This document shows positions 8,437-55,349 of a stretch of DNA of 64,000 bases, in pieces. How positions within the stretch are numbered: position 1 is the first letter of the stretch; each line of letters starts with the position of its first letter. The translations under genes and the position numbers were made by a program. The notes beneath the pieces were generated by a model. The model saw nothing but the letters and a program-made list of their open reading frames with translations, had not been told where the DNA came from and did no database searches. The DNA comes from Lutibacter sp. B1 (lineage in GTDB: Bacteria; Bacteroidota; Bacteroidia; Flavobacteriales; Flavobacteriaceae): NCBI RefSeq assembly GCF_012524075.1, contig NZ_JAAZUI010000008.1:62001-126000 (forward strand). Reading direction: 5' to 3'.

Positions 8437-9078
8437 ATGTACGCAATTGTAGAGATAGCAGGGCAACAGTTTAAAGTAGCAAAAGACCAAAAGGTTTACG
8501 TACACCGTTTACAAGAAGAAGAAGGAGCAAAAGTTTCTTTTGATAAAGTTCTTCTTTTAGATAATAATGGTGCTGTAACCGTTGGCGCCCCAGCTATAGA
8601 AGGAGCCGAAGTAACGGCTAAAATCTTAGGTCACTTAAAAGGTGATAAAGTTATCGTTTTTAAGAAAAAACGTAGAAAAGGATACAGAGTAAAAAATGGT
8701 CACAGACAATCTTTTACTGAAATTCAAATTGAAGGTATCGCAGCAAGTGGTGCTCAAAAAAAGACTTCAGCTAAAAAAGAAGCTAAACCAGTTGTAAAAA
8801 AAGCTCCTGTTAAAAAATCTTCTAAAGGAGATGATTTAAAGAAAGTTGAAGGTATTGGACCTAAAATTGCAGAAATATTTGTAGCTGCTGGGATTGATAC
8901 TTTTGCTAAATTAGCTGCAACTGAAGTAGATAAATTAAAAGAAATTTTAACTGCTGCAGGACCAAGATATGCTTCTAAAACACCTGATTCATGGCCAAAA
9001 CAAGCTAAAATGGCTGCTGAAGGGAAATGGGATGAATTAAAAGAATGGCAAGATAATACTAAAGGCGGTATTGAATAA
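8437..9078 (+). CDS. rplU: 50S ribosomal protein L21 with C-terminal helix-hairpin-helix extension
   Basis: A 213-residue protein. Residues 1-103 are a complete bacterial L21 ([14 protein letters not shown] through [16 protein letters not shown]). A basic Lys/Ala linker (about 107-130) leads to a domain of about 80 residues containing [19 protein letters not shown], a helix-hairpin-helix motif, and ending in TKGGIE. Ordinary L21 is about 103 residues, so the tail doubles the protein. Such L21 fusions are seen in Flavobacteriia, and the tail's role is not established; nucleic-acid binding is inferred from the motif. It is co-transcribed with rpmA, 35 bases downstream. Confidence 0.95.
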
Positions 9079-9453: not shown

Positions 9454-10689
9454 ATGTACTTTTTATACAACATACTTGTTTATACTGCACAGTTTTTATT
9501 GAAAATAATTGCATTATTCAATAAAAAAATTAAACTTTTTGTGAGTGGGCGTAAAAAAACATTTACACAATTACAACAAGCTATTTTTAAAGAAGATAAT
9601 GTTATATGGATGCATTGTGCTTCACTTGGAGAATTTGAACAAGGTAGACCTATTATCGAAAAATTAAAGGAACAGAATCCTTTAAAAAAAATAGTAGTAA
9701 CTTTTTTTTCTCCATCAGGATATGAGGTTAGAAAAAACTATGATGTAGCAGATGTTGTATGTTATTTACCTTTGGATACTGAAAAAAATGCTAAAAAATT
9801 TCTTGAAATTGTACACCCACAAACAGCTGTTTTTGTTAAGTATGAATTTTGGCCTAATTTATTGAAAGAACTTAAAACTAAAAATATTGAAACTATTTTA
9901 GTTTCAGGAATTTTTAGGGAAGATCAGCTATTTTTTAAATGGTATGGAGGTTGGATGCGAAAATCATTAAATGCTTTTTCACACCTTTTTGTACAAGATG
10001 AAAATTCAAAAAAATTATTAAGTTCTATTCAATATAAAAATGTTACCGTAAGTGGAGATACTCGTTTTGATCGTGTTTTAGAGATAACCAAACAAAATAA
10101 TCAGCTTTCTTTTATTGAAGAATTTAAAGAAGATGCTTTTATATTGGTTGCCGGAAGTACATGGAAAGAAGATGAAGATTTATTAATTGATTATATTAAT
10201 AATTCAACTTTTGAAAATGAAAAATTTATAATAGCTCCACACAATATAAATTCAAACGATATTAGCGAGTTAAAAAATAGGATTACAAAAAAAACGGTAC
10301 TTTTTTCAGAAAAAGAACATAAAAATCTTTCAGAGTTCAATGTTTTTATAATAGATACTATTGGAATTCTTACCAAAATATACAGTTATGCCAATGTAGC
10401 TTATGTTGGAGGAGGATTTACAAAAACAGGTGTGCATAATGTGCTGGAACCCGCTACTTTTAGTGTACCAATAATAATTGGACCTAATTATTATAAATTT
10501 AATGAAGCTATAGAGCTAGTTAAAAAGGAAGCTTGTTTTGTGGTTGATAATTCTCAAAAATTATCCGTACTTTTAAAAACGTTTTTTCAAGAAAAAGAAA
10601 ATACTATAAAAACAGGTAGTAAAGCAAAGAGTTATGTAATTTCTAAAACAGGAGCTACTACAAAAATTTTAAATTATATAGAAAGATGA
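9454..10689 (+). CDS. waaA: 3-deoxy-D-manno-octulosonic acid (Kdo) transferase
   Basis: A 411-residue membrane-anchored glycosyltransferase of the KdtA/WaaA family, which adds Kdo to lipid A precursors on the cytoplasmic face of the inner membrane. One N-terminal hydrophobic segment (residues about 5-22) precedes the GT-B fold. MHCASLGEFEQGRP contains the family's catalytic Glu. The second lobe carries VAYVGGGFTKTGVHNVLEPA, the nucleotide-sugar (CMP-Kdo) binding region. The gene ends 4 bases inside the following crp-like gene, so the two are translationally coupled although functionally unrelated. Confidence 0.94.
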   Translation: MYFLYNILVYTAQFLLKIIALFNKKIKLFVSGRKKTFTQLQQAIFKEDNVIWMHCASLGEFEQGRPIIEKLKEQNPLKKIVVTFFSPSGYEVRKNYDVADVVCYLPLDTEKNAKKFLEIVHPQTAVFVKYEFWPNLLKELKTKNIETILVSGIFREDQLFFKWYGGWMRKSLNAFSHLFVQDENSKKLLSSIQYKNVTVSGDTRFDRVLEITKQNNQLSFIEEFKEDAFILVAGSTWKEDEDLLIDYINNSTFENEKFIIAPHNINSNDISELKNRITKKTVLFSEKEHKNLSEFNVFIIDTIGILTKIYSYANVAYVGGGFTKTGVHNVLEPATFSVPIIIGPNYYKFNEAIELVKKEACFVVDNSQKLSVLLKTFFQEKENTIKTGSKAKSYVISKTGATTKILNYIER

Positions 10690-11318
10690 GAGAAAAGTTA
10701 GACAGCTATTATTCATTTGTTTTTGAAAAAGAATTACTTGATGAAATTGAACAAGTTGGAGTTTATAAAAAACTTCGAGAAAATGAATTATTGGTCGACT
10801 TAGGTGATCAAATGAAAGGAGTTCCTCTTTTACTTAACGGAGCAATTAAAATTGTAAGGGAAGATAAAAAAGGAGAAGAAATCTTGTTATATTTTTTGGA
10901 AAGAGGAGATACTTGTGCCAGCTCTTTTGCAAGTGCTATATCTAACAATAAATGTGGAATTAGAGCCATAGCCGAAAAAGAATCGGAAATTATTTTTCTG
11001 CCAAAAGAAAAATTAGACGAGTGGTTGGTTAAATATAAGTCTTGGAGAAATTTTGTAATTGATAGTTACAATATTCGACTTAATGAAATGATGGAAACTA
11101 TTGATACATTGGCATTTATGAGAATGGATGAGCGTTTGTATAAATATTTGACAGATAAAGCTCAAATTTTGAGAGAAACATCTCTAAACACAACACATCA
11201 AGATATTGCTTACGATTTACATACATCGCGTGTTGTTATTTCAAGATTGTTAAAACAACTTGAAAATGAAGGTAAAATCAAGCTGAATAGAAATAAAATT
11301 GAGATTTTAGAATTCTAA
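10686..11318 (+). CDS. Crp/Fnr-family transcription regulator (paralogue 1)
   Basis: A 210-residue regulator with a cyclic-nucleotide-binding-like beta-roll (about 1-115), a long dimerisation helix (about 120-145) and a winged helix (about 150-210). The recognition helix reads SRVVISRLLKQL. Aligned with E. coli Crp RETVGR it keeps both Arg (182, 187) but has Val183 where Crp has Glu181. Two cysteines, Cys78 and Cys90 (GDTCASSF, NNKCGIR), lie in the effector domain. There is no N-terminal cysteine cluster, so it is not an Fnr-type Fe-S sensor. A TGTAA-type palindrome just downstream controls yeeE. The gene probably senses a sulfur- or redox-related signal; the effector is unknown. Confidence 0.88.
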   Translation: MREKLDSYYSFVFEKELLDEIEQVGVYKKLRENELLVDLGDQMKGVPLLLNGAIKIVREDKKGEEILLYFLERGDTCASSFASAISNNKCGIRAIAEKESEIIFLPKEKLDEWLVKYKSWRNFVIDSYNIRLNEMMETIDTLAFMRMDERLYKYLTDKAQILRETSLNTTHQDIAYDLHTSRVVISRLLKQLENEGKIKLNRNKIEILEF

Positions 11319-11322
11319 CTTA

Positions 11323-11366
11323 TGTAACAATAGTTACAAAGAGGCGCGATTTATACAATACATTAG
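11323..11366 (+). promoter_or_regulatory. yeeE promoter with Crp/Fnr-type palindrome and -7 element
   Basis: TGTAACAATAGTTACA at 11323-11338 has perfect six-base arms around AATA (TGTAA-N6-TTACA). TACATTAG at 11359-11366 matches TANNTTTG in seven of eight positions. Its first base is 28.5 bp from the palindrome centre, which puts the site near -42 as in class II activation. Confidence 0.65.
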
Positions 11367-11391
11367 ATTATACTAACTAAAAATAATAATT

Positions 11392-11949
11392 ATGGAATTT
11401 ATAAGTCAACCTTGGGCTTGGTATGTTGCAGGCCCTGTAATTGCGTTGGTCATGTTTTTACTTTTCTACTTTGGCGAACGCTTTGGAGTTTCTTCAAACC
11501 TTGAAACATTTTGCTCTATTGGTGGTGCGGGAAAATTTGTAGATTATTTTAAAATTGACTGGAAACAAAATGTGTGGAACTTAATTTTTATTGCTGGTTC
11601 AATTGCCGGTGGTTTTATTGCTACCCAATGGCTTTCAACTACAGAAGTAGTAGATATAAACACACAAACGGTTAAAGATTTAGCCGATATAGGTATTGCT
11701 AATGCAGGAACATCTTATTTGCCCGATGAGATTTTTAGTATAGAAACTATGCTAACACTTAAAGGTTTTATTATTTTGATAGTAGCAGGGTTTATGGTTG
11801 GTTTTGGAGCACGATGGGCAGGTGGATGTACATCCGGACATGCTATTGTGGGATTAAGTAATTTAGAAATTCCTTCTGTAATATCAGTCATTGGATTTTT
11901 TATAGGTGGTTTAATAATGACCTGGTTTATTTTACCTCTAATATTTTAA
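11392..11949 (+). CDS. YeeE/YedE-family sulfur-compound transporter, part 1
   Basis: A 185-residue integral membrane protein with about four to five transmembrane segments. It carries the family signature ARWAGGCTSGHAIVGLSNLE near residue 143, whose Cys belongs to the thiosulfate-relay pathway described for TsuA-type YeeE proteins. It is about half the length of full YeeE and is paired with the next gene, which supplies the other half, as is common in this family. Import of thiosulfate or another reduced sulfur species is inferred. It lies downstream of a regulator gene and carries a Crp/Fnr-type site in its promoter. Confidence 0.87.
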   Translation: MEFISQPWAWYVAGPVIALVMFLLFYFGERFGVSSNLETFCSIGGAGKFVDYFKIDWKQNVWNLIFIAGSIAGGFIATQWLSTTEVVDINTQTVKDLADIGIANAGTSYLPDEIFSIETMLTLKGFIILIVAGFMVGFGARWAGGCTSGHAIVGLSNLEIPSVISVIGFFIGGLIMTWFILPLIF

Positions 11950-11953
11950 AAAG

Positions 11954-12367
11954 ATGAAATATATTAAGTTTTTTTTAGTAGGCATTCTTTTTGGAATAGT
12001 AATGACTAAAGGAGAAATTATATCGTGGTATAGAATTTACGAGATGTTTAAATTTCAGTCTTTTCATATGTATGGAGTTATAGGTTCTGCTGTAGTTCTA
12101 GGTATAGTAAGTATGTATTTATTCAGAAAAAAAATGGTAAAAACCTTTGAAGGAAACGAAATACATGTTGCCCCAAAGAAAAAAGGGTTGTATCGCAATC
12201 TTTTAGGAGGAATTTTATTCGGATTAGGTTGGGCTTTAGCAGGAGCATGCCCGGGACCAATGTTTGTATTAATTGGTAAAGGTGTTGTTTCAATTTTTAT
12301 AGTAATTTTTGGTGCTACTTTAGGAGCTTTCTGTTACGGATTATTTAAAGATAAACTACCTCACTAA
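11954..12367 (+). CDS. YeeE/YedE-family sulfur-compound transporter, part 2 (DUF6691-like)
   Basis: A 137-residue membrane protein with about four transmembrane segments. The signature GWALAGACPGPMFVLIGKG supplies the second conserved Cys of the YeeE fold. It starts 4 bases after the first half-gene, so the two are almost certainly made together and form one transporter. A second Crp/Fnr gene follows 13 bases downstream, putting regulator-transporter-regulator in one cluster. Substrate uncertain; thiosulfate or sulfide-related species favoured. Confidence 0.85.
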   Translation: MKYIKFFLVGILFGIVMTKGEIISWYRIYEMFKFQSFHMYGVIGSAVVLGIVSMYLFRKKMVKTFEGNEIHVAPKKKGLYRNLLGGILFGLGWALAGACPGPMFVLIGKGVVSIFIVIFGATLGAFCYGLFKDKLPH

Positions 12368-12380
12368 AAGGTATGTTCAC

Positions 12381-13013
12381 ATGAAAATAAATGAAATAGT
12401 TACGCAAAGTTTTTCAGATATTTTTGAAAAAAATTTACTTCAAGAAATATATAATTATGGTATTTTAAAACAAGCAACTTCTGAAAAAATAATTTTAGAA
12501 ATTAGAAGAGAAATAAGCTTTATACCTTTAATTGTTTTTGGAGTTGTAAAAGTAATGAGAAGAGATGGTAAAGGTAATGGCATTTTTTTACATTATTTGT
12601 CTGAAAAACAATATAGTGCAATAGCAGTAACTTATGGTCTTGAAAATAAAGAAAGTGAAATTAGATTGGTAGCTGAAAGTGATGTTACTTACATTGCAAT
12701 ACCTATAAAAGTTGTAAATTCGTGGTTTTTAAAGTACAAATCTTGGTCGGTATTTTACAATAAATTAAATCATCAGCAAACATCTTATTTAATTCAAAAT
12801 ATTAATGATATTTGTTTTACAAATTTGGAATTCAGGTTGTTAAAATATTTAGAGCAAACACGTTCAGTTAAAAAAAGAAAAACTATTTTAAAAAAACATT
12901 TTGATATAGCACGTGATTTAAATGTATCTCGGGAAGCAATATCCAGAATATTAAAAAAATTAGAAAAAGAAGAAAGAATAACTTTAGGTAGAAATAAAAT
13001 AATACTCAATTAA
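12381..13013 (+). CDS. Crp/Fnr-family transcription regulator (paralogue 2)
   Basis: A 210-residue Crp/Fnr protein, the same length as the first paralogue but clearly diverged. The effector domain is more basic and AT-driven in composition and lacks the Cys78/Cys90 pair. The recognition helix reads SREAISRILKKL, so it keeps Glu185 at the Crp Glu181 position and would be expected to read TGTGA half-sites. It overlaps moaA by one base, which ties it to the Moco operon. A TGTGA-N6-TCACA site stands in front of the molybdo-enzyme genes at 22305-22320, a plausible target. Confidence 0.85.
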   Translation: MKINEIVTQSFSDIFEKNLLQEIYNYGILKQATSEKIILEIRREISFIPLIVFGVVKVMRRDGKGNGIFLHYLSEKQYSAIAVTYGLENKESEIRLVAESDVTYIAIPIKVVNSWFLKYKSWSVFYNKLNHQQTSYLIQNINDICFTNLEFRLLKYLEQTRSVKKRKTILKKHFDIARDLNVSREAISRILKKLEKEERITLGRNKIILN

Positions 13014-13999
13014 TGGAGTTGTTAGATAAATTTGGCAGAAAAATTACTTATTTGCGATTAGCAGTTACCGATCGTTGTAATTTGCGTTGTCAATATTGTA
13101 TGCCTGCACAAGGAATTGATATTGTTGATAGGAAAGAATTATTGTCGTACAAAGAAATGTATCGAATTACTCGTGTGTTATCAGAATTGGGAGTAAATAA
13201 AGTACGTTTAACCGGTGGTGAGCCATTTGTTAGAAAAGACTTTGTAAACTTTTTAGAATCGTTGAGTTTTAATGATAAGCTTGAGGAAATCAATATCACA
13301 ACAAACGGGGCTTTAATTTCAAATCATATAAATAAGTTGGAAGAATTGAACATACATTCAATTAACTTAAGTATAGATAGTTTACAAAAAGAAAAGTTTG
13401 CTAAAATTACCAGAAGAGATGTTTTTGATGGTGTTTTTAACACATTTGATTTGTTAGAAAAAAGCAATCTTAAATTAAAATTGAACGTTGTAGTACAATC
13501 TGGTTTTAATACCGATGAAATTATTGATTTTATAGAGCTGTCAAAAGAAAAAGAGATAGAAGTTCGTTTTATTGAAGAAATGCCTTTTAATGGAAGTGGA
13601 AAAAGAAATGTTGAGGAGGTATGGAATTTTAACAAAATACTGGATTATATAAAAAATCACTATCCAACTATTGAAGAACTTAACTCAAAAAAATCATCTA
13701 CATCTTATAATTATAAAATACCAAACTACAAAGGTTCATTTGGTGTAATTCCTTCATATACAAGACTTATTTGTAAAGATTGCAATAGAATTAGAATTAC
13801 AGCCACAGGCTTGTTTAAAAATTGTTTGTTTGACGGTGGCGTTTTTAATGTGCGCGATTTTATTAGAAAAGGAGCAAACGATGATGATTTAAAAGAATTA
13901 TTTATTTCAACAGTACATCACAAACCCGAAAATGGTTTTATAGCTGAAGCTAATAGAGCAACTAACGTTTCAGAAAGTATGTCTACAATTGGAGGGTAA
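13013..13999 (+). CDS. moaA: GTP 3',8-cyclase MoaA (radical SAM)
   Basis: A 328-residue radical SAM enzyme that converts GTP to 3',8-cyclo-7,8-dihydro-GTP, the first step of molybdopterin synthesis. The N-terminal cluster motif is CNLRCQYC (near residues 22-29). The C-terminal cluster is CKDCNRIRITATGLFKNC (Cys-x2-Cys-x13-Cys), which binds GTP. The protein ends in STIGG, with the C-terminal Gly-Gly needed for activity. It overlaps the regulator gene upstream and the TrpF-like gene downstream by one base each, indicating a tight operon. Confidence 0.96.
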   Translation: MELLDKFGRKITYLRLAVTDRCNLRCQYCMPAQGIDIVDRKELLSYKEMYRITRVLSELGVNKVRLTGGEPFVRKDFVNFLESLSFNDKLEEINITTNGALISNHINKLEELNIHSINLSIDSLQKEKFAKITRRDVFDGVFNTFDLLEKSNLKLKLNVVVQSGFNTDEIIDFIELSKEKEIEVRFIEEMPFNGSGKRNVEEVWNFNKILDYIKNHYPTIEELNSKKSSTSYNYKIPNYKGSFGVIPSYTRLICKDCNRIRITATGLFKNCLFDGGVFNVRDFIRKGANDDDLKELFISTVHHKPENGFIAEANRATNVSESMSTIGG

Positions 14000-14652
14000 T
14001 GAGAATTCCAAAAGTAAAAATTTGTTGTATCAGCAGTATTAAAGAAGCAAATTTAGCCGTTAAAGCAGGTGCATCTGCAATAGGTTTGGTTGGGCATATG
14101 CCAAGTGGTCCGGGAATTATAAAAGATGAATTAATTGCTGAAATTACTCAAATTGTACCCAAACATATTGATACTTTTTTGCTAACCAGCGAAACAGAAG
14201 TAGAAAAAATTATTGAACACCACTCAAAAGTAAACACAACAACCATTCAAATTGTTGATGCACTCACAAAAGGAACACACCAACAATTAAAAACAGCTTT
14301 ACCAAATGTAAAAATAGTTCAGGTTTTACATGTTTTAGACGAAAAATCAATTGATGAAGCCATTGCAATTTCAAAAAAAGTAGATTGTATTTTGTTAGAT
14401 AGTGGAAATCCTAATTTGAAAACCAAAGAGTTAGGTGGTACAGGTAGAGTTCATAACTGGAAAATAAGCAAACAAATTGTTGAAAAAGTAAATATACCTG
14501 TGTTTTTAGCAGGAGGTTTATCGTCAATCAATGCAAAAGAAGCTATAGATAATGTGAATCCCTACGGACTTGATTTATGTAGTGGTGTTAGAACTAACGG
14601 AAAACTTGATTCAACTAAATTAACAGCCTTTTTTAGGGCTATAAAGCATTAG
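13999..14652 (+). CDS. TrpF-fold protein (phosphoribosylanthranilate isomerase homologue) inside the Moco operon
   Basis: A 217-residue TIM barrel clearly related to TrpF. The general base/acid pair is kept: Cys9 (VKICCIS, normally KICGI) and Asp134 (ILLDSGNP). The C-terminal phosphate-binding loops are also kept (FLAGGLSS, DLCSGVR). However, the substrate loop that normally reads SxRYxS, with the Arg that holds the anthranilate carboxylate, reads PSGPGII, and the QLHG strand reads QIVD. The location between moaA and moeA, with one-base overlap and a 4-base gap, and with no other trp gene nearby, argues for a role other than tryptophan synthesis. A true TrpF with unusual loops remains possible. 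Confidence 0.75.
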   Translation: MRIPKVKICCISSIKEANLAVKAGASAIGLVGHMPSGPGIIKDELIAEITQIVPKHIDTFLLTSETEVEKIIEHHSKVNTTTIQIVDALTKGTHQQLKTALPNVKIVQVLHVLDEKSIDEAIAISKKVDCILLDSGNPNLKTKELGGTGRVHNWKISKQIVEKVNIPVFLAGGLSSINAKEAIDNVNPYGLDLCSGVRTNGKLDSTKLTAFFRAIKH

Positions 14653-14656
14653 TAAA

Positions 14657-15859
14657 ATGGAATTAACAACAGTAAAAGAAGCCTTAGAAATAATTTTAAA
14701 AAACACTCACGATTTTGGAACGGAAGAAGTAGATTTTTTAGATGCTGTTGGAAGAATTTTAAAAGAAGATATTGTTGCCGATAGAGATTTTCCGCCTTTT
14801 GATAGAGTTAGTATGGACGGAATTGCTATTTCTTCGGAAGAATTCAATAAAGGGCAACGGGAGTTTAAAATTGAAGGAGTTCAGGCGGCAGGAAGTGAAC
14901 AACTTTTACTTCAAAATAAAAATAATTGTATTGAAGCAATGACCGGTGCGATACTTCCTAAAAATACGGATGCTGTTATTCAGTACGAGCAATTAGAAAT
15001 AACCAACGGTATAGCTAAAATTCTGATTGATGAGGTTAAATATTTAAAAAATGTTCACAAAAAAGGGTTGGATAAAAAACAAGGAGATGTATTAATTTAT
15101 AAAAATACGCTAATTTCTTCTGCTGAAATAGGAGTGTTGGCTACAGTTGGAAAATCAAAAGTTAAAGTTGCAAAACAACCAAAAGTTATGATTGTTTCAA
15201 CCGGTAATGAGTTGGTAAAGGTTTCTGAGGTACCTGCAGAACATCAAATTAGAAGAAGCAATGTTTTTACGTTGGTTTCATTGTTAAATAAATTTAAAAT
15301 AAAAGCAGAGACAGCACATATTTTAGATAATAAAGAAACGTTATTAACTAAAATAGACTCTTTTTTAAATAAGTATGATGTGCTTATTTTTAGCGGAGCA
15401 GTTTCTAAAGGAAAATTCGATTTTATACCGGAAGTTTTAGATACTTTAGGTGTTGAAAAATTATTTCATAGGGTAAAACAAAAACCGGGGAAACCTTTTT
15501 GGTTTGGTAAAAAAAGAAATACAACAATTTTCGCATTTCCCGGAAATCCGGTTTCAACATTTGTAAGCTGTTTAAAATATTTTTATCCGTGGTATCAAAA
15601 ATCTGTTGGATTGAATTTTAAAAATAAGCAACAGGCAATTTTAAGTGAAGATTTTTCATTTAAACAAGGACTGACTTATTTTTTACAGGTAAAATTAAAT
15701 GTTGAAGAAGGGAAATTATTAGCAACACCTGTAGCAGGAAAAGGTTCGGGAGATTTAGCTAATTTAGTTGATGCTGATGCTTTTTTGGAATTACCGGATG
15801 ATAGAAGTAATTTTACCAAAGGAGAAGTTTTTCCGATACTTATGTATCGTAGTTTTTAA
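14657..15859 (+). CDS. moeA: Molybdopterin molybdenumtransferase MoeA
   Basis: A 400-residue MoeA/gephyrin E-domain protein that inserts molybdate into adenylylated molybdopterin. Typical segments are FPPFDRVSMDGIAI near residue 48, MTGAILPKNTDAVIQYEQ near 100, VSTGNELVKV near 185, SGAVSKGKFDFIPE near 250 and FAFPGNPVSTFVSCLKYFYP near 300. Domains I-IV are all present and the length is normal. It lies 4 bases after the TrpF-like gene. Downstream the operon is interrupted by a decayed four-helix-bundle gene before moaC. Confidence 0.95.
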   Translation: MELTTVKEALEIILKNTHDFGTEEVDFLDAVGRILKEDIVADRDFPPFDRVSMDGIAISSEEFNKGQREFKIEGVQAAGSEQLLLQNKNNCIEAMTGAILPKNTDAVIQYEQLEITNGIAKILIDEVKYLKNVHKKGLDKKQGDVLIYKNTLISSAEIGVLATVGKSKVKVAKQPKVMIVSTGNELVKVSEVPAEHQIRRSNVFTLVSLLNKFKIKAETAHILDNKETLLTKIDSFLNKYDVLIFSGAVSKGKFDFIPEVLDTLGVEKLFHRVKQKPGKPFWFGKKRNTTIFAFPGNPVSTFVSCLKYFYPWYQKSVGLNFKNKQQAILSEDFSFKQGLTYFLQVKLNVEEGKLLATPVAGKGSGDLANLVDADAFLELPDDRSNFTKGEVFPILMYRSF

Positions 15860-22304: not shown

Positions 22305-22348
22305 TGTGATTTTAATCACAAAACTAATACAACCAATAGTTAAATTTG
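22305..22348 (+). promoter_or_regulatory. Crp-type palindrome and -7 element of the molybdo-oxidoreductase genes
   Basis: TGTGATTTTAATCACA at 22305-22320 is a perfect TGTGA-N6-TCACA palindrome. TAAATTTG at 22341-22348 is a full -7 match. The distance from palindrome centre to the first base of the element is 28.5 bp, the same as at the yeeE and hydrogenase promoters. It lies in the 155-bp gap between moaD and the oxidoreductase and could affect both directions. Confidence 0.72.
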
Positions 22349-22376
22349 TTTAATCCTATAAATATTTTAACAAAGA

Positions 22377-23993
22377 ATGAAATATGGTTTTATAATAGAT
22401 AACCGAAAATGTATTGGTTGTCATGCTTGTACAACGGCCTGTAAATCAGAACATGATGTAGCTGTTGGAGTTAACAGAACGTATGTTAAACAAGTTGAAA
22501 AGGGAGAATTCCCCAATACTCGAAGAATTTTTTCTGTAATGCGTTGCAATCATTGTACCGATGCTCCTTGTGTAGAAATTTGCCCAGTTGAGGCACTCTA
22601 TACACGAGAAGATGGTATAGTAGATTTTGATAACAATCGGTGTATAGGTTGCAAATCGTGTATGCAAGCTTGCCCTTATGATGCGTTGTATATTGACCCT
22701 GATAATAATACTGCAGCAAAATGCAATTATTGTGCGCATAGAGTTGATGTTGGTCGTGAACCGGCTTGTGTAACTGTTTGTCCGGAACATGCAATTATTG
22801 CAGGAGATATGCACAATCCAACTACTGAAATATCACAATTGTTGGCACGCCAACATGTAAAAGTTCGTAAACCTGAAAAAGGAACAAATCCAAATTTGTT
22901 CTATATTGATGCAGATGAAGCCTCTTTGAACCCTGAAGCAACCGATAAATCAGGTCCAAGTTTATGGAATTCACAAGCTCGTGGTGTTGGACATTTTGCG
23001 AAAGCTGCAGAAAAAATGATGCATACAAATGATGATGTTGATTTATTGCAAATGACTATAGATAATGAAATTCAAGCAGCATATCAGAAAAAAGAAACTG
23101 AAAACCCAAATTATATTGATGTTTTAAGTGGGAAAGCCCGTAGAGTATACGATACACCAGACAAAGGAATTCTTTGGGGATGGGAAGTGTCAACCTATGT
23201 TTTTACTAAAGCAATAGCTGCAGGTGCTTTCTTAATTCCATTTTTAGCCATCATGTTAGGATATGATGTTTCAAACACAGCTAAACTTTGGTCGGCTGGA
23301 ATTTCTCTTGTTTTTTTAGGATTAACAGGATTATTCTTAGTAATGGATTTAGACAGACCGGATCGTTTTTTAAATGTTCTTTTAAGACCACAATGGAATT
23401 CATGGCTAGTTAAAGGAGGTTATATTTTAACCATTTTTGGATTATTAGTAACTATTTGGGGAGTATCAACTTTGTTTGGTTGGAACATTCCTGAACAATC
23501 CTTGTTATGGGTAACCGCTGTTTTTGCAATATTGTTAGCCGTGTATACTGCTTTCTTATTTGCACAGGCAAAAGGACGTGATTTTTGGCAAAGCCCTACA
23601 TTACCATTACACATGTTGGTTCATAGTGTAATGGCAGGAGCTGCAGTTTTTATTTTAGTCGGATTTGTTTTGGGTTATGAATATTGGATGGATATTTTAA
23701 AAATCACTTTAACCATCGCATTAGTTGTAAATGTATTTACGTTAATAACCGAGTTAACTGTAACTCATCCAACAACAGCCGCAAAAAAAGTTGTTAAAAT
23801 GATTACCAAAGGTAGATATAAAAATCTGTTTTGGTTTGTAACTGTACTTATAGGAAATATTATTCCAATAGCACTTTTATTTTATGGAAACAGCGAAATA
23901 ACAATTATTATAACAGCTGTTTTAGTTTTAATAGGAATTGTTTTTACAGAGAAAATTTGGGTTGAAGCACCTCAAAGAGTACCGTTAGCTTAA
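22377..23993 (+). CDS. Fused 4Fe-4S ferredoxin / NrfD-type membrane subunit of a molybdo-oxidoreductase
   Basis: A 538-residue fusion. Residues 1-150 hold four [4Fe-4S] motifs (CIGCHACTTACKSE, CNHCTDAPCVEICP, CIGCKSCMQACP, CNYCAHRVDVGREPACVTVCP), as in PsrB, DmsB or SoeB. After a linker, residues about 260-535 form an NrfD/PsrC-like quinone-interacting membrane domain with about nine transmembrane segments. Normally the electron-transfer and membrane subunits are separate proteins. It should shuttle electrons between the catalytic subunit encoded 17 bases downstream and the quinone pool. No Tat or Sec signal is seen at the N-terminus, which suggests that the Fe-S domain faces the cytoplasm. 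Confidence 0.9.
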   Translation: MKYGFIIDNRKCIGCHACTTACKSEHDVAVGVNRTYVKQVEKGEFPNTRRIFSVMRCNHCTDAPCVEICPVEALYTREDGIVDFDNNRCIGCKSCMQACPYDALYIDPDNNTAAKCNYCAHRVDVGREPACVTVCPEHAIIAGDMHNPTTEISQLLARQHVKVRKPEKGTNPNLFYIDADEASLNPEATDKSGPSLWNSQARGVGHFAKAAEKMMHTNDDVDLLQMTIDNEIQAAYQKKETENPNYIDVLSGKARRVYDTPDKGILWGWEVSTYVFTKAIAAGAFLIPFLAIMLGYDVSNTAKLWSAGISLVFLGLTGLFLVMDLDRPDRFLNVLLRPQWNSWLVKGGYILTIFGLLVTIWGVSTLFGWNIPEQSLLWVTAVFAILLAVYTAFLFAQAKGRDFWQSPTLPLHMLVHSVMAGAAVFILVGFVLGYEYWMDILKITLTIALVVNVFTLITELTVTHPTTAAKKVVKMITKGRYKNLFWFVTVLIGNIIPIALLFYGNSEITIIITAVLVLIGIVFTEKIWVEAPQRVPLA

Positions 23994-24009: not shown

Positions 24010-26901
24010 ATGGGATATAAAAAACCATCATTTATAGAAAATATTGCAGAAAAGTTAGGGATCATTCCTAATTTGCATAAAGAAGGATATCAAGAATTTG
24101 ATAAAGATATGCGTCATTTTACCGACGAGGAAGTGGCTCAAATGTACGAGAATTTCCCATCACCTGAAAAATGGGATAATTGGGTGGAATACAACCCGAA
24201 AGTATGGCCTAAAAAGGAGAAAAAAACCTATCAAATTGTACCTACTACGTGTTTTAATTGTGAAAGTGCTTGCGGTTTAACTGCTTTTATTGATAAAGAA
24301 ACTCAAGAAGTTAAAAAATTCGAAGGCAATCCGTATCATCCTGGAAGTAGAGGACGTAATTGTGCAAAAGGTCCGGCAACTATAAATCAAATTACTGATC
24401 CGGATCGAATTTTATTTCCTTTGAAAAGAAAAGGAAAAAGAGGAAGTGGAGAATGGGAACGTGTTTCGTGGGATGAGGTTTTAGACACCATTGCCGAGCG
24501 TATCAGAAATGCAATTAAAGAAAACCGTCATAATGAAGTTGCATATCATGTTGGACGCCCAGGTGCAGAAGGATTTATGAATTGGGTATTACAATCGTGG
24601 GGAATTGACGGACATAATTCTCACACCAATATCTGTTCTTCAGGAGCTCGATTTGGATACAATTTATGGTATGGGTACGACAGACCTTCACCTGATCATT
24701 CTGAAGCAAAATTCATTTTATTGGTATCTGCACATTTAGAGTCGGGACATTACTTCAATCCGCACGCACAACGTATTATTGAAGGAAAAATGAAAGGAGC
24801 AAAATTAGCAACTATGGATCCAAGATTATCTAATACGGCTTCCATGTCCGATTATTGGTTGCCTTCATATCCTGGAACTGAAGCTGCAGTTTTGTTAGCT
24901 ATGGCTTTAATTATTTTAAAAGAAGGATTGTATAATAGAAAGTATTTAGAAAATTGGACAAACTGGAAAGAATATTTAAAAGCTCGGCATAGCGATAAAG
25001 AAGTAACTTTTGAGAACTACATTGCCGCTATGATTGATGAGTATAAAGAATTTACCCCCGAGTTTGCTGAAAAAGAATCAGGAGTAAAAGCCGAAATGAT
25101 TGTTGAAATTGCGCATAAAATTGGTGAAGCTGGCGAACGTTTTGCTTCGCATAACTGGCGAGCAGCCGGAGCCTCAAATTTAGGTGGTTGGGCAGTAGCA
25201 CGTTGTTTGCATTTTCTAACAGTGTTAACAGGTGCCGTTGGAGCCAAAGGAGGAACATCGCCAAACTCATGGAATAAATTTAAGCCTCAAGTACCAAATC
25301 CGCCAAAACCTCAAAAACAATGGAATGAGCTTCATTTTCCAAAAGAGTATCCTTTAGCATTTTTTGAAATGAGCCAACTTTTGCCACATATGTTAAAAGA
25401 AGGTCGTGGTAAAATGGATGTCTATTTTTCACGGGTTTTTAATCCTGTTTGGACGTATCCTGATGGATTTACTTGGATGGAAATGTTATCGGATGAAACT
25501 AAATTTGGACTACACGCAGCTTTAACTCCAACTTGGAACGAAACAGCTTTTTATGCAGATTTTGTATTGCCAATGGGATTGGCTTCTGAACGCCACGATT
25601 TAAACAGTTATGCAACACATAGTGGAACTTGGGTGGCTTTTCGTCAGCCTGTATTGCGTGAAGCAGCACGCAGAAATGGCAAACCGGTTGAATATACTTA
25701 TCAGTCTAATCCGGGTGAAGTTTGGGAAGAAGATGAGTTTTGGATTGAATTGAGTTGGAGAATTGATCCTGATGGAAGTATGGGAATTCGTGAGCACTTT
25801 GAATCGCCTTATCGACCGGGTAAAAAAATTACAATAGATGAATACTACCAATATGTTTTTGAACGTGTAAAAGGTTTGCCGGAAGCTGCTGAAAAAGAAG
25901 GCTTAACAGCATTAGAATATATGCAAAAATACGGAGCTTTTGAAATAGAAAAACAGGGTTATAAAAAGAATGAAGTTAAATTAACGAAAGAACAATTAGA
26001 AGGTTCTGAAGTTGATAAAAATAACGATGTTATTTATAAAGACGGTAAAGCTATTGGAGTGATGGTTGATGGAGAAGCTTGTGTAGGTTTTCCTACACCA
26101 TCTCGTAAAAACGAGTTTTATTCACAAACTATGGTAGATTGGAAATGGCCTGAGTATGCTACGCCAACGTATATTAAAAGCCATATTCATAATGATAATT
26201 TAGATAAATCTAAAGGAGAATACGTATTGGTGCCAACTTTTAGATTGCCTACTTTAATTCATTCTCGATCAGGAAATGCAAAATGGTTGGTGGAAATTTC
26301 CAATAGAAATCCTATTTGGATGCATCCGAACGATGCTGCAAAATGGGGCTTTAAAACCGGTGATTTGGTTAAAATGAATACTGATATAGGCTATTTTATT
26401 GATAAAGTTTGGGTAACACAAAGTATGAAACCGGGTGTTGTTGCGTGCTCACATCATATTGGACGTTGGCGTAGACAACAAGATAAAATTGGAAACCGCT
26501 GGGCAACAAATACTGTAGATATACAAGGAGATGGAAAAGGCAGGTGGAAAATGAATACAATTGCGGGTATAAAACCTTTTGAATCTGATGATAAAGATTC
26601 TAAACGAATTTTTTGGAAAGATGGTGGTGTGCACCAAAATATTACACATGCTGTACATCCTGATCCAATTAGCGGAATGCATTGTTGGCATCAGCGAGTT
26701 AAAATTGAAAAACCAAAAGAAGGTGAAAAATATGGAGATATTTTTGTTGATACGAATAAATCTCATGAAATTTATAAGGAATGGTTAGCAATGACTCGTC
26801 CTGCTCCAGGACCAAATGGTGAGCGTAGACCTCTTTGGTTTAAAAGAGCATTTCAACCAGATGAATCAGTCTATTACATTAAGAATAAAAAAGAAGAATA
26901 A
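24010..26901 (+). CDS. Molybdopterin (bis-MGD) oxidoreductase catalytic subunit, SoeA/PsrA-like
   Basis: A 963-residue catalytic subunit of the DMSO-reductase family. The [4Fe-4S] cluster ligands are Cys81, Cys84, Cys88 and Cys118 (CFNCESACG, then RGRNCAKGP). The probable Mo ligand is Cys209 in NICSSGARFG. The C-terminal MGD-binding domain starts near 735 (YVLVPTFRLPTLIHSRSGNA). No twin-arginine signal is present. Cytoplasmic orientation and an NrfD partner are features of the sulfite dehydrogenase SoeABC; polysulfide or thiosulfate reductases usually have Tat signals. Substrate is therefore unproven, with a sulfur compound favoured by the nearby YeeE genes. A strong terminator follows. Confidence 0.85.
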   Translation: MGYKKPSFIENIAEKLGIIPNLHKEGYQEFDKDMRHFTDEEVAQMYENFPSPEKWDNWVEYNPKVWPKKEKKTYQIVPTTCFNCESACGLTAFIDKETQEVKKFEGNPYHPGSRGRNCAKGPATINQITDPDRILFPLKRKGKRGSGEWERVSWDEVLDTIAERIRNAIKENRHNEVAYHVGRPGAEGFMNWVLQSWGIDGHNSHTNICSSGARFGYNLWYGYDRPSPDHSEAKFILLVSAHLESGHYFNPHAQRIIEGKMKGAKLATMDPRLSNTASMSDYWLPSYPGTEAAVLLAMALIILKEGLYNRKYLENWTNWKEYLKARHSDKEVTFENYIAAMIDEYKEFTPEFAEKESGVKAEMIVEIAHKIGEAGERFASHNWRAAGASNLGGWAVARCLHFLTVLTGAVGAKGGTSPNSWNKFKPQVPNPPKPQKQWNELHFPKEYPLAFFEMSQLLPHMLKEGRGKMDVYFSRVFNPVWTYPDGFTWMEMLSDETKFGLHAALTPTWNETAFYADFVLPMGLASERHDLNSYATHSGTWVAFRQPVLREAARRNGKPVEYTYQSNPGEVWEEDEFWIELSWRIDPDGSMGIREHFESPYRPGKKITIDEYYQYVFERVKGLPEAAEKEGLTALEYMQKYGAFEIEKQGYKKNEVKLTKEQLEGSEVDKNNDVIYKDGKAIGVMVDGEACVGFPTPSRKNEFYSQTMVDWKWPEYATPTYIKSHIHNDNLDKSKGEYVLVPTFRLPTLIHSRSGNAKWLVEISNRNPIWMHPNDAAKWGFKTGDLVKMNTDIGYFIDKVWVTQSMKPGVVACSHHIGRWRRQQDKIGNRWATNTVDIQGDGKGRWKMNTIAGIKPFESDDKDSKRIFWKDGGVHQNITHAVHPDPISGMHCWHQRVKIEKPKEGEKYGDIFVDTNKSHEIYKEWLAMTRPAPGPNGERRPLWFKRAFQPDESVYYIKNKKEE

Positions 26902-46352: not shown

Positions 46353-47072
46353 ATGGAAATTAAAAAAAATCCAAAAGCAAATCTAGAAAACTACAGTAAA
46401 TTGTTCATGCAGTTGGGGTTAGTTTTGGCACTTTTAGTGGCGTATATGGCGATTGAAAGAAAGACGTACGATAGAGTTATTGCAGATTTAGGTCCTGCTA
46501 ACTACAATGTTCAAGAGGAGGAGCAAATTATTGAAATAGAGCAAATAAAACCGCCAGAACCAAAAACTCCACCACCACCAACACCAGATAAAATTGAAGT
46601 TGTTGAAGATGAACAAGATGTTGAGGAAACAGTTATTGAATCTACAGAAACTGATGAGAATGAGGCTGTTGAAGTAGAAGAGATTATAGAAGTTGAGGAG
46701 GAAGAGGAAGTTATGGAGGATGTTCCTTTTGCAATTATAGAAGATGTGCCTGTTTATCCTGGATGTAAAGGAAATAAAGCTCAGTTAAAGGAATGTTTAC
46801 AAGATAATATTACAAAACATGTAAACAGAAAATTTAATTCTGATCTGGCATCTGATTTAGGATTATCTCCTGGAGTTAAGAGAATTTTTGTAATGTTCAA
46901 AATTGATAAAAACGGAAATATTACGGATGTAATGGCTCGTGCACCTCATAAGAGATTACAAGATGAAGCTATTAGAGTGGTAAAATCTTTACCAAAAATG
47001 CAACCAGGAAAACAACGTGGTCGTCCAGTGGGTGTTAAATATAGCTTACCTATTGCATTTAAAGTAGAATAG
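46353..47072 (+). CDS. TonB-family energy transducer, copy 1
   Basis: A 239-residue TonB. One membrane anchor (LFMQLGLVLALLVAYMAIE, residues about 18-36) is followed by a proline-rich stretch (KPPEPKTPPPPTPDKIE) and an acidic Glu/Val linker. The C-terminal TonB domain (about 145-239) has a Cys pair in VYPGCKGNKAQLKECL and ends in LPIAFKVE. It couples the proton-motive force to outer-membrane receptors. It is the first of three tandem paralogues and the only one with the proline-rich spacer intact. A perfect hairpin terminator follows it, so the copies are transcribed separately. Confidence 0.92.
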   Translation: MEIKKNPKANLENYSKLFMQLGLVLALLVAYMAIERKTYDRVIADLGPANYNVQEEEQIIEIEQIKPPEPKTPPPPTPDKIEVVEDEQDVEETVIESTETDENEAVEVEEIIEVEEEEEVMEDVPFAIIEDVPVYPGCKGNKAQLKECLQDNITKHVNRKFNSDLASDLGLSPGVKRIFVMFKIDKNGNITDVMARAPHKRLQDEAIRVVKSLPKMQPGKQRGRPVGVKYSLPIAFKVE

Positions 47073-47096
47073 AATTTAATAAATAGAACAGTAAAA

Positions 47097-47125
47097 GCTC
47101 AACCAATTGGTTGAGCTTTTTTTTT
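47097..47125 (+). terminator. Hairpin terminator after tonB copy 1
   Basis: GCTCAACCAATTGGTTGAGC is a perfect 20-bp palindrome followed by nine T residues. Confidence 0.9.
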
Positions 47126-47258
47126 GGTATGTTTATTGATGTTAACAAAATATTAACATTTATTCTTTAAAAGCCTATATTGTAATTAATAGTCTCAATA
47201 CCACTCAAAACATTAATTCAAAATAAGTTATGTAAAGAATAAGCTAAATTTTATTCTT

Positions 47259-47984
47259 ATGAAAACAAAAAAACATCCCAAAGCAAATTTAGACAATTAC
47301 ACTAAATTATTTGTTCAACTAGGCTTAGTATTATCGCTAATTGTTGTTTATTCACTAATTCAAAATAAAACTTTAACAAAAAATACAATTGTTTTAAATG
47401 AGAAAATAAGAGTTCATACTGAAGAACCCATACAAATGGTTGATATAAAAATTGAAAAACAAATACCCAAAACAACTTTTAAAAAACAAGTATTACCTGA
47501 AATAATTATAAAAGCAGAAAACAATTCTAATATTGATGAGGTTTTTTTTGATAATATTGACACAAGTGATCCTGTTGATATAAATAGTTTTGTTGATGAA
47601 AAAAATGAGGATGAACCGATGGGAATTGATGTTGTTGATTATGTATTTTTAGAAGAAGCACCATTGTTTCCGGGCTGTAGTGGTACAAATGAAGAAAGAA
47701 AAGCCTGTTTTTCTAATAAAATAAGTAAATATATCAATAGAAAATTTAATACGGAATTAGCATTTGAATTAGGTTTAAAACCCGGGATTCAAAAAATTTA
47801 TACGCAATTTAAGATAGATAAAAACGGTAATATTACTGATGTTCAAGCCAGATCACCTCATAAAGAATTACAACTTGAGGCAATTAGAGTTATAAACTTA
47901 TTGCCAAAAATGGAACCTGGAAAGCAACAAGGAAATCCAGTAAAAGTAAGATATTCAATTCCAATTGTATTTAAAGTTGAATAG
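47259..47984 (+). CDS. TonB-family energy transducer, copy 2
   Basis: A 241-residue paralogue of the preceding TonB. The anchor is LFVQLGLVLSLIVVYSLI and the C-terminal domain keeps the Cys pair (LFPGCSGTNEERKACF) and the ending IPIVFKVE. The periplasmic linker has lost the proline-rich segment and is instead Lys- then Asp/Glu-rich, so its reach or its partners may differ. No -7 element was identified with confidence; TATGTTTA in the upstream gap is one mismatch away. The gap of 186 bp upstream holds the terminator of copy 1. Confidence 0.88.
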   Translation: MKTKKHPKANLDNYTKLFVQLGLVLSLIVVYSLIQNKTLTKNTIVLNEKIRVHTEEPIQMVDIKIEKQIPKTTFKKQVLPEIIIKAENNSNIDEVFFDNIDTSDPVDINSFVDEKNEDEPMGIDVVDYVFLEEAPLFPGCSGTNEERKACFSNKISKYINRKFNTELAFELGLKPGIQKIYTQFKIDKNGNITDVQARSPHKELQLEAIRVINLLPKMEPGKQQGNPVKVRYSIPIVFKVE

Positions 47985-48067
47985 TTTAATAATCAACTGT
48001 TTGTTTAAGTAATTTAACTAAAAAAAATTGTAAATTATATTAAAATATTGTAACTTTAATATGAAGG

Positions 48068-48120
48068 AAATCTTGCAAGATTTTACTTCGTTATAAGTAT
48101 TCTGAGATGTAAATCTTGCA
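48068..48120. repeat. Short palindrome with partial repeat upstream of tonB copy 3
   Basis: AAATCTTGCAAGATTT at 48068-48083 is a perfect palindrome, and its half AAATCTTGCA recurs at 48111-48120. They lie in the 204-bp gap before the third tonB. An operator is possible; nothing else is seen in this gap. Confidence 0.4.
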
Positions 48121-48188
48121 TTATAAATTATCCTGTATAAATAATACAGTTCTGTTTAGTTGTTTTTGTTTAACTTAAAACATTAACC

Positions 48189-48923
48189 ATGCAAGTAAAA
48201 AAATATCCAAACGCAATTCTTGAAAATTATAGTAGAATTTTAATTCAATTAGGGTTAGTATTGTCACTTTTTGTGGTTTATCAATTCATGAAAATGAAAT
48301 CATATCCTAGAGAAGCTAAAGAATTGGTTGGTACCTACATAAATGTAGAAGACACAAAAAACTTGATCGAAATTAAAAATATAGAACCCGAAATACCAAA
48401 ACAACAAGCTCAGGCAGTAATTCCTGAGAAAATAGTTAAAGTTGAAGACGAAATTGATGTTCAGGAAACAATTATTGAAACTACAGAGACCGATGAATCT
48501 GAAGCAATTTCAATTTCTGTTGATAAAGATATAGTTGAAGTTAAGGAAGAGGAAGAAGTGCTGGAAGATGTTGCATTTGTTGTAATTGAAGAAGTTCCTG
48601 TTTTTCCTGGTTGTACAGGAGGTAAAGATGAACTCAGAGCTTGTTTCTCAAATCAAATATCCAAATTTGTAACAAGAAATTTCAATTCTGAATTAGCCTC
48701 TGATTTAGGTTTGCAAACAGGAAGTATTCAAAAAATATTTGTAATGTTTACAATTGATAAAGATGGAAGTATTACAAATATTCAAGCAAGAGCACCTCAT
48801 GTAAAACTGCAAGATGAAGCAATAAGAGTTGTTAAAATGTTACCTAAAATGACACCTGGTAAACAAAGAGGCAGACCTGTAGGTGTTAAGTATGGATTGC
48901 CTATTGTATTTAAGGTAGAATAA
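48189..48923 (+). CDS. TonB-family energy transducer, copy 3
   Basis: A 244-residue TonB paralogue, closer to copy 1 than to copy 2 in the C-terminal domain (TPGKQRGRPVGVKYGLPIVF). The anchor is ILIQLGLVLSLFVVYQFM. The linker is acidic (VKEEEEVLEDVAFVVIEEV) with few prolines. The Cys pair is in VFPGCTGGKDELRACF. It completes a tandem triplication located between sprA-gcvH-vanZ and remB, where one tonB-like gene is more usual. A perfect terminator hairpin follows. Confidence 0.9.
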   Translation: MQVKKYPNAILENYSRILIQLGLVLSLFVVYQFMKMKSYPREAKELVGTYINVEDTKNLIEIKNIEPEIPKQQAQAVIPEKIVKVEDEIDVQETIIETTETDESEAISISVDKDIVEVKEEEEVLEDVAFVVIEEVPVFPGCTGGKDELRACFSNQISKFVTRNFNSELASDLGLQTGSIQKIFVMFTIDKDGSITNIQARAPHVKLQDEAIRVVKMLPKMTPGKQRGRPVGVKYGLPIVFKVE

Positions 48924-54045: not shown

Positions 54046-54089
54046 TGTAACAATTGTTACTAATATAGGAGTATTACATCTTATTTTAA
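54046..54089 (+). promoter_or_regulatory. Hydrogenase promoter with Crp/Fnr-type palindrome
   Basis: GTAACAATTGTTAC at 54047-54060 is a perfect palindrome that repeats the yeeE site almost exactly (TGTAA-N6-TTACT including flanks). TATTTTAA at 54082-54089 matches TANNTTTG in six of eight positions. Its first base is 28.5 bp from the palindrome centre, the same spacing as at the other two sites. A weak -7 box fits a promoter that depends on an activator. Confidence 0.6.
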
Positions 54090-54091
54090 AG

Positions 54092-54186
54092 CATTCTAAA
54101 TTAGGATGTTAACGTTATGCGTATTAAAAAAAATTGTAATTTAGAATGTGACTTTTTTAAAGTTAAAGCAATAAGTTTTAAAAGTC
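54092..54186 (+). repeat. Inverted repeats in the leader region of the hydrogenase operon
   Basis: CATTCTAAATTA (54092-54103) and TAATTTAGAATG (54137-54148) are perfect 12-bp inverted copies separated by 33 bases. GACTTTT (54150-54156) and AAAAGTC (54180-54186) form a second smaller pair. If transcription starts near 54095, most of this is in the roughly 120-base leader before the small-subunit gene. It could be an RNA structure or a DNA operator. Confidence 0.5.
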
Positions 54187-55338: not shown

Positions 55339-55349
55339 AACTTAAAACA

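Follow-up and report, generated by a model that had tools for sequence, protein, structure and literature searches.

Does one regulator of the Crp/Fnr family govern sulfur transport, a molybdo-enzyme and a hydrogenase in Lutibacter? The window analyzed here, a stretch of 64,000 nt from Lutibacter sp. B1 (contig NZ_JAAZUI010000008.1, positions 62,001 to 126,000 of the forward strand, assembly GCF_012524075.1), raises this question. A sequence-only reading had assigned three of its promoters to one regulon on the grounds of a shared TGTRA-N6-TYACA palindrome centered exactly 28.5 bp before a -7-like element. Read directly, the three palindromes and boxes are present at the coordinates that it gave and the distance is correct at all three, but the shared motif is perfect only at 11323 and 22305, since the palindrome at 54046-54061 lacks the last base (9/10). 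Site quality decreases in the order 22305, 11323, 54046. Throughout, N20 denotes a distance of 28.5 bp from palindrome center to first box base and N21 one of 29.5 bp, the B1 genome is the 3.42-Mb assembly that holds the window, and the genome sample comprises Flavobacteriaceae, the family of the window.

The features under discussion are the following (window positions).

10686-11318, forward strand: R1, Crp/Fnr-family regulator of 210 aa with Cys77, Cys90 and helix TSRVVISR (Pfam cNMP_binding and HTH_Crp_2)
11323-11338, forward strand: palindrome TGTAACAATAGTTACA, predicted R1 site of the yeeE operon; perfect TGTRA-N6-TYACA, center at predicted -40.5
11359-11366, forward strand: -7-like box TACATTAG, 5/6 match to TANNTTTG, at N20
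11392-11949, forward strand: YeeE1 (Sulf_transp; Pfam), first gene past the yeeE site
11954-12367, forward strand: YeeE2 (DUF6691/Sulf_transp; Pfam)
12381-13013, forward strand: R2, second Crp/Fnr-family protein, without Cys77, helix VSREAISR (Pfam, alignments)
13013-15859, forward strand: MoaA, PRAI-like and MoeA genes (molybdenum cofactor), close behind R2 (ORF coordinates, Pfam)
22305-22320, forward strand: palindrome TGTGATTTTAATCACA, predicted site of the molybdo-enzyme operon; perfect TGTRA-N6-TYACA
22341-22348, forward strand: -7 box TAAATTTG, 6/6 match, at N20
22377-23993, forward strand: fused Fe-S/NrfD subunit of the molybdo-enzyme (Pfam Fer4_11, NrfD), "SoeB" by analogy only
24010-26901, forward strand: molybdopterin catalytic subunit (Pfam Molybdopterin), "SoeA" by analogy only
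54046-54061, forward strand: palindrome TGTAACAATTGTTACT upstream of the hydrogenase, 9/10; regulon membership doubtful
54082-54089, forward strand: weak -7-like box TATTTTAA, 4/6 match, at N20
54214-57080, forward strand: [NiFe]-hydrogenase small and large subunits (Pfam)

The stop codon of R1 ends at 11318, leaving four bases before the yeeE palindrome. YeeE1 shows a weak similarity to TsuA that is under the cut-off, and the MoaA, PRAI-like and MoeA genes probably share an operon with R2. The molybdo-enzyme is similar to several molybdo-oxidoreductases; its NCBIfam scores fall under every cut-off and no curated model gives sulfite dehydrogenase, so that we call it putatively sulfite-oxidizing only by context. 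Elsewhere in the window, ribosomal protein L21 carries a C-terminal helix-hairpin-helix extension (8437-9078), and three similar proteins of 239, 241 and 244 aa stand in tandem (46353-48923), the first of which, the one scanned, has a TonB_C domain.

Class II activators of the Crp/Fnr family classically bind near -41.5. An excerpt of PMC9723704 places the sigma-A box TAnnTTTG of F. psychrophilum at -12 to -5. By analogy with this position, transcription of yeeE is predicted to start at 11371 and that of the molybdo-enzyme at 22353, and the palindrome center would fall at -41.5 at N21 and at -40.5 at N20. The class II geometry proposed in the sequence-only reading therefore holds as a prediction that uses this box position.

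Spacing in the window and in the B1 genome

The window by itself gives no support to the claim, because both palindrome and N20 counts lie at chance level. It contains 11 palindromes with at most one mismatch against 15.3 expected, and of its 22 oriented palindromes five have a box matching 4/6 or better at N20, a count within the range of 0-6 seen at other gaps. Since N20 pairing was no better than chance, the coincidence within the window was dropped as evidence in itself.

The B1 genome contains 44 perfect TGTRA-N6-TYACA palindromes, and the reversed control pattern occurs 23 times. Of the 88 orientations, 5 show a box matching 5/6 or better at N20, where the average over other gaps is 1.34 (for this single gap, uncorrected Poisson P 0.012). 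These five are the sites at 11323 and 22305 and three sites on contig C150. Gap N38 scores six boxes over the same 44 palindromes, and the N20 peak is thus not significant by itself. A sharper pattern is seen with TGTGA-N6-TCACA, a subset picked after the data were seen: all four intergenic sites have a TAnnTTTG-like box at N20, with at most two at other gaps, a result with a chance of about 1.3e-4 after correcting for 45 gaps. These four sites precede SQR-like, PDO-like, SulP and window molybdo-enzyme genes; the fifth lies within an ORF.

The core GTRAC-N4-GTYAC occurs 16 times in the B1 genome against 8 for its reverse, and shows no such doubling in two same-genus genomes (12 vs 11 and 9 vs 8). 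Of 15 of the 16 core sites (all but C139:41826), only five face a gene across a box matching 5/6 or better at N20 or N21; the other ten do not.

Targets outside the window were identified at both kinds of site. The three C150 sites precede a 437-aa protein like sulfide:quinone oxidoreductase (SQR), whose best NCBIfam match is type III SQR at 248 bits (cut-off 525), a 471-aa metallo-beta-lactamase/rhodanese protein, classed by its domains as of the persulfide dioxygenase (PDO) kind, and a SulP permease. Core sites precede a 103-aa rhodanese at N20, a 141-aa rhodanese at N21 and a thioredoxin-like gene (by eye) at N21 with box TCACTTTG (5/6). The sites of the 141-aa rhodanese and the thioredoxin-like gene are kept in both same-genus genomes, and that of the 103-aa rhodanese in one.

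Several further loci were noted alongside these targets. A second cluster (L381, G000:C33:36000-55000, positions 1306 and 7815) encodes two R1 paralogues, rhodaneses and a YeeE-like protein together with a 747-aa molybdo-enzyme, Fe-S and NrfD-like subunits. In three Lutibacter genomes this molybdo-enzyme is preceded by GTAAC-N4-GTTAC, without a box of 5/6 at N20 or N21. One-mismatch N20 sites lie before a 444-aa membrane protein resembling cytochrome bd subunit I by eye (G000:C58:64892-64935, L278), bd oxidases being resistant to sulfide, and before an OsmC-like protein of 139 aa (by eye) in two Lutibacter genomes (G000:C139:138039, L281; G047:C82:5454, L294).

Spacing and targets across the family

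Strict scans of the family, in which a perfect box TANNTTTG was required at any gap from 6 to 34, recovered TGTAAC-N4-GTTACA at 73 places in 239 genomes (51 at N21, 9 at N20, 13 at all other gaps) and TGTGAY-N4-RTCACA at 56 places in 397 genomes (45 at N21, 6 at N20, 5 elsewhere). N20 and N21 together account for 111 of these 129 strict pairs. The exact N20 pattern with TGTRA-N6-TYACA was found in 70 of 397 genomes, at 85 places against 11 reversed (our own tally), and relaxed matches in 80 loci around R1 genes peaked at N21 (44) and N20 (33), followed by N22 (15), with 1-14 at other gaps. The spacing signal is real across the family, though not in the window alone. The exact 28.5 bp, for its part, describes six of the eight well-formed promoters found in the B1 genome but not the 141-aa rhodanese and thioredoxin-like promoters, which are at 29.5 bp. 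A fixed rule of 28.5 bp was consequently rejected: the Lutibacter promoters seen are mostly N20, and the family norm is N21.

Target genes were classified only against proteins of the window and of locus L036. Of 40 TGTAAC loci, all of the N21 type (40 of the 51 N21 places and of the 73 places overall), 12 precede TauE/SafE-like genes, assigned by eye against the Pfam-tested L174 protein, 4 rhodanese, 3 YeeE, 3 R1, 2 PDO and 2 SQR genes, one YeeE and one SQR starting more than 330 bp past the box; 14 precede none of these. The site follows an R1 gene within about 50 bases in 10 of the 40, as in the window. The 29 TGTGA loci, which cover 29 of the 56 places, include 10 PDO, 1 SQR-like, 1 SulP (B1 genome), 1 molybdo-enzyme and 4 FAD/NAD reductase-type targets, the others being different or unclassified; two of the other 27 places, L111 and the window site, were seen separately. 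The N20 scan (30 loci) gave 3 YeeE, 4 SulP, 1 molybdo-enzyme and 1 rhodanese, with 9 of the 30 sites inside an ORF, including the rhodanese and molybdo-enzyme ones. A small protein starting with the zinc-ribbon-like CPKCH(E/Q)ESM is an N20 target at seven of these 30 loci (L094-L096, L100, L105, L119 and L123).

Orthologous promoters of yeeE and the molybdo-enzyme

The two better window sites recur at orthologous promoters. At 14 of 19 orthologous molybdo-enzyme promoters (that of B1 included), the palindrome matches 9/10 or better and a perfect 6/6 box follows at N20 or N21; three of the remaining five have weaker palindromes (8/10), one is at N19 and one is without a site, the gene in this last case coming after YeeE2 (by eye). 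The yeeE promoter beside R1 has a palindrome and a box of at least 5/6 at N20 in nine of the ten closest loci, the half-site being of the TGTAA type in four and of the TGTGA type in five.

These data bear on the possibility that AT-rich DNA produced the palindromes by chance and that their equal spacing is a coincidence. Such a reading accords with the chance-level palindrome and N20 counts of the window and with the N38 boxes of the B1 genome, but the family-wide spacing peaks, the functional coherence of targets and the conservation of orthologous promoters make it extremely improbable. The family data refute it for 11323 and 22305, though not for 54046. The single regulon claimed for three promoters thus stands for yeeE and the molybdo-enzyme, whose predicted common membership is supported by site conservation, and is doubtful for the hydrogenase, whose site is not conserved.

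The hydrogenase promoter

Hydrogenase orthologues were collected at 18 loci, 15 of them evaluable; L228-L230 were dropped by the ORF rule, and the same-genus genome G269 lay outside the sample. Apart from the window promoter, none of the evaluable orthologues (14, the same-genus G047 included) showed a palindrome matching 9/10 or better, and the hydrogenase was rejected as a conserved member of the regulon for this reason. A different palindrome, TGAY-N4-RTCA (mostly ATGAY-N4-RTCAT), was recovered instead in 11 of the 15 evaluable promoters (HydS loci L214, L216, L217, L219-L221 and L223-L227), and one more has seven of its eight letters; the window genome and G047 are without it. In 9 of these 11 promoters a 5/6 box (mostly TANNTTTA) is located exactly at N21, with at most one at any other gap. 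The relatives' hydrogenase promoters therefore look like a class II layout with another type of Crp/Fnr site, and the different palindrome at N21 suggests that another Crp/Fnr protein probably serves the hydrogenase there. It also follows that the N21 geometry is not specific to the TGTRA site type.

In the window strain, either the site type was switched or the palindrome arose by chance. That the promoter is a genuine member here, its ancestral ATGAY-N4-RTCAT site switched to TGTAAC so that H2 and sulfur oxidation are co-regulated, seems to us somewhat unlikely. The core GTAACAATTGTTAC is perfect, one of 16 core sites in 3.4 Mb, and the site matches that of yeeE at 14 of 16 bases, but its box matches at just 4/6 and its palindrome is 153 bp from the start codon, compared with 54 bp for yeeE and 57 bp for the molybdo-enzyme, and lies nearer (79 bp) to the divergent hypA. 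Relatives have a Crp/Fnr-like palindrome at the same class II position, which speaks for a switch, yet the G047 promoter has no palindrome of the window type though its -7 region aligns (by eye), and neither do 13 further evaluable orthologues. The hydrogenase leader also holds an inverted repeat, CATTCTAAATTA / TAATTTAGAATG (54092-54150), which is partly present in G047 (by eye).

The regulators R1 and R2

With a cNMP_binding-type N-terminal domain and a C-terminal HTH_Crp_2 domain, both above Pfam cut-offs, R1 belongs to the Crp/Fnr superfamily. Its predicted structure has a mean pLDDT of 83.7 and a modest value of about 61 around Cys77, and the top 50 Foldseek matches are all Crp/Fnr structures (probability 1.00, TM-scores 0.47-0.64). 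The window R1 is 89-95% identical to that of the ten closest loci, seven of them from Lutibacter. Of 149 family genomes 135 have a match, 117 of which count as R1 (E below 1e-50) and 18, weaker, as other subfamilies. Genomes with R1 carry a strict site in 50 of 117 cases and those without R1 in 1 of 32 (P 4.6e-6). Among genomes of at least 2.5 Mb (a hand count; R1-less genomes tend to be small), the figures are 48 of 106 and 0 of 16 (P 1.6e-4). Both P values are optimistic because kinship among genomes is uncorrected. Against a role of R1, 67 of the 117 R1 genomes are without a strict site, though these scans demand a perfect box.

R1 scores 43.5 bits as a cAMP-dependent CRP (curated cut-off 266) and 42.5 as NtcA (244.95), so that neither assignment fits. 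The oxygen-sensing Fe-S type of FNR has four cluster-binding cysteines; R1 has two only, 77 and 90, and does not match this type. All 35 aligned R1 proteins share Cys77 and the helix TSRVVxSR. Cys83/84 occur in more than half of the aligned family but not in the window R1. Compared with CRP (4bh9), the helix keeps the equivalents of Arg180 and Arg185 and has Val at 181 (numbering of PMC1274295), as do all 35 R1 sequences. In HcpR2 proteins, according to an excerpt of PMC1274295, E181 is changed to Pro, the motif is GTAACnnnnGTTAC and residue 181 is tied to the motif change. R1 shares the GTAACnnnnGTTAC motif and has Val in place of this Pro; given the tie, Val181 fits TGTRA.

R2 has Glu at 181 and lacks Cys77. 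Its matches at 63-69% come only from two other same-genus genomes, the next best reaching 40% (20 genomes searched), and it stands beside R1 in eight of the ten closest loci, the other two ending near there. The two helices therefore differ exactly at the specificity position, which would suit a pair of overlapping regulons in Lutibacter, with R1 (Val181) reading TGTAA and R2 (Glu181) reading TGTGA. The limitation of clear R2 matches to the genus and the B1 sites themselves, TGTGA before the SQR, SulP, PDO and molybdo-enzyme genes and TGTAA before yeeE and rhodanese genes, agree with this arrangement. However, TGTGA sites at N20 or N21 also occur in G009, G119, G218 and G330, where the best R2 matches are at 33-38%, and Lutibacter yeeE orthologues have either half-site at a constant N20 with R2 beside both types. 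We regard two overlapping regulons as improbable, and reject a strict split on account of the presence of R2 beside both half-site types. Furthermore, three of the 11 HTH_Crp_2 matches in the B1 genome are R1-like, so another protein could bind the sites.

A proposed sulfide oxidation regulon

We consider it quite probable that the yeeE and molybdo-enzyme promoters belong to a regulon for sulfide and persulfide oxidation, widespread in Flavobacteriaceae, that R1 would switch on as a class II activator; its genes appear to serve the oxidation or export of toxic sulfide. From the computed sites, spacing, conservation, targets, R1/site co-occurrence and Cys77 conservation, we infer binding by R1, activation, signal and enzyme reactions as follows. 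An R1 dimer would bind TGTRA-N6-TYACA, its core often GTAAC-N4-GTTAC, at a site centered 28.5 or 29.5 bp upstream of the sigma-A -7 box (about -40.5/-41.5) and in place of a -33 element, from where it would recruit RNA polymerase as a class II activator. The signal may be reactive sulfur, sensed through Cys77, which would lie in the loop used by CRP for effector binding. SQR would convert sulfide to persulfide, PDO and rhodaneses would convert persulfide to sulfite, and the molybdo-enzyme, with cofactor genes provided downstream of yeeE, would convert sulfite to sulfate, while SulP, TauE/SafE and YeeE would serve transport. The basis for these steps is family annotation, together with the parallel to the FisR and BigR operons in an excerpt of PMC7315123. 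Compared with the one first proposed, this regulon covers more genes and has a narrower theme, sulfide/persulfide oxidation. More tentatively, and with less than even probability, R1 could be a persulfide-sensing Crp/Fnr activator of the sulfide-to-sulfate route across Flavobacteriaceae, in which Cys77 replaces the cyclic-nucleotide contact, and would do the job that FisR, BigR or SqrR do elsewhere; R2 of Lutibacter could be an added second input at the same sites.

Comparison with known systems

Neither the class II layout nor the Crp/Fnr fold nor the motif core is new in kind, and other regulators are known to control this gene set. In Acinetobacter baumannii, an excerpt of PMC7315123 describes SQR, PDO and TauE under FisR and yeeE-yedE-pdo2 under BigR, much the same gene set as in the proposed R1 regulon. 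The regulators differ in type: FisR activates with sigma-54 and BigR is a repressor of the ArsR family, whereas R1 is a Crp/Fnr protein with predicted class II sites. The proposed R1 regulon also includes the molybdo-enzyme, and that excerpt makes no mention of one for FisR or BigR. HcpR2 of Bacteroides and others resembles R1 in family, in motif GTAACnnnnGTTAC and in an altered residue 181, but in most Bacteroides its regulon is hcp only, with Pro181, in contrast to the predicted sulfur targets and the Val181 of R1 (PMC1274295, in excerpt). The solved HcpR of P. gingivalis (9day) is a distant match of R1 (E 2.5e-5).

Two further relatives deserve comparison. NtcA and R1 both have R-V in the recognition helix (TRVTVTR and SRVVISR, respectively). 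The NtcA consensus GTA-N8-TAC equals the R1 core, but NtcA is a cyanobacterial nitrogen regulator with nitrogen targets. Its ligand, judging from PDB titles, is 2-oxoglutarate. The other relative comes from Eubacterium rectale, a member of a different phylum. This Crp/Fnr protein (3dv8) is the best match of R1 among solved structures (E 7.5e-24) and has a cysteine aligned to Cys77.

In the literature searched, which included few subscription journals and part of each source, we found no Crp/Fnr regulator of sulfide or persulfide genes for Bacteroidota, though one may be described elsewhere, no described regulator of flavobacterial sulfide oxidation and nothing useful on the sulfide physiology of Lutibacter.

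Biological significance

Flavobacteria are abundant at oxic/sulfidic boundaries. With R1, a candidate regulator of their sulfide oxidation can be named that is present in 117 of 149 sampled genomes of the family. Because the site model has a fixed spacing and transcription starts are predicted to the base, it is testable in a tractable laboratory flavobacterium. The results also suggest that Bacteroidota, with their unusual sigma-A -7 box, place at least two types of Crp/Fnr site, TGTRA and, at hydrogenases, ATGAY, at the classical -41.5.
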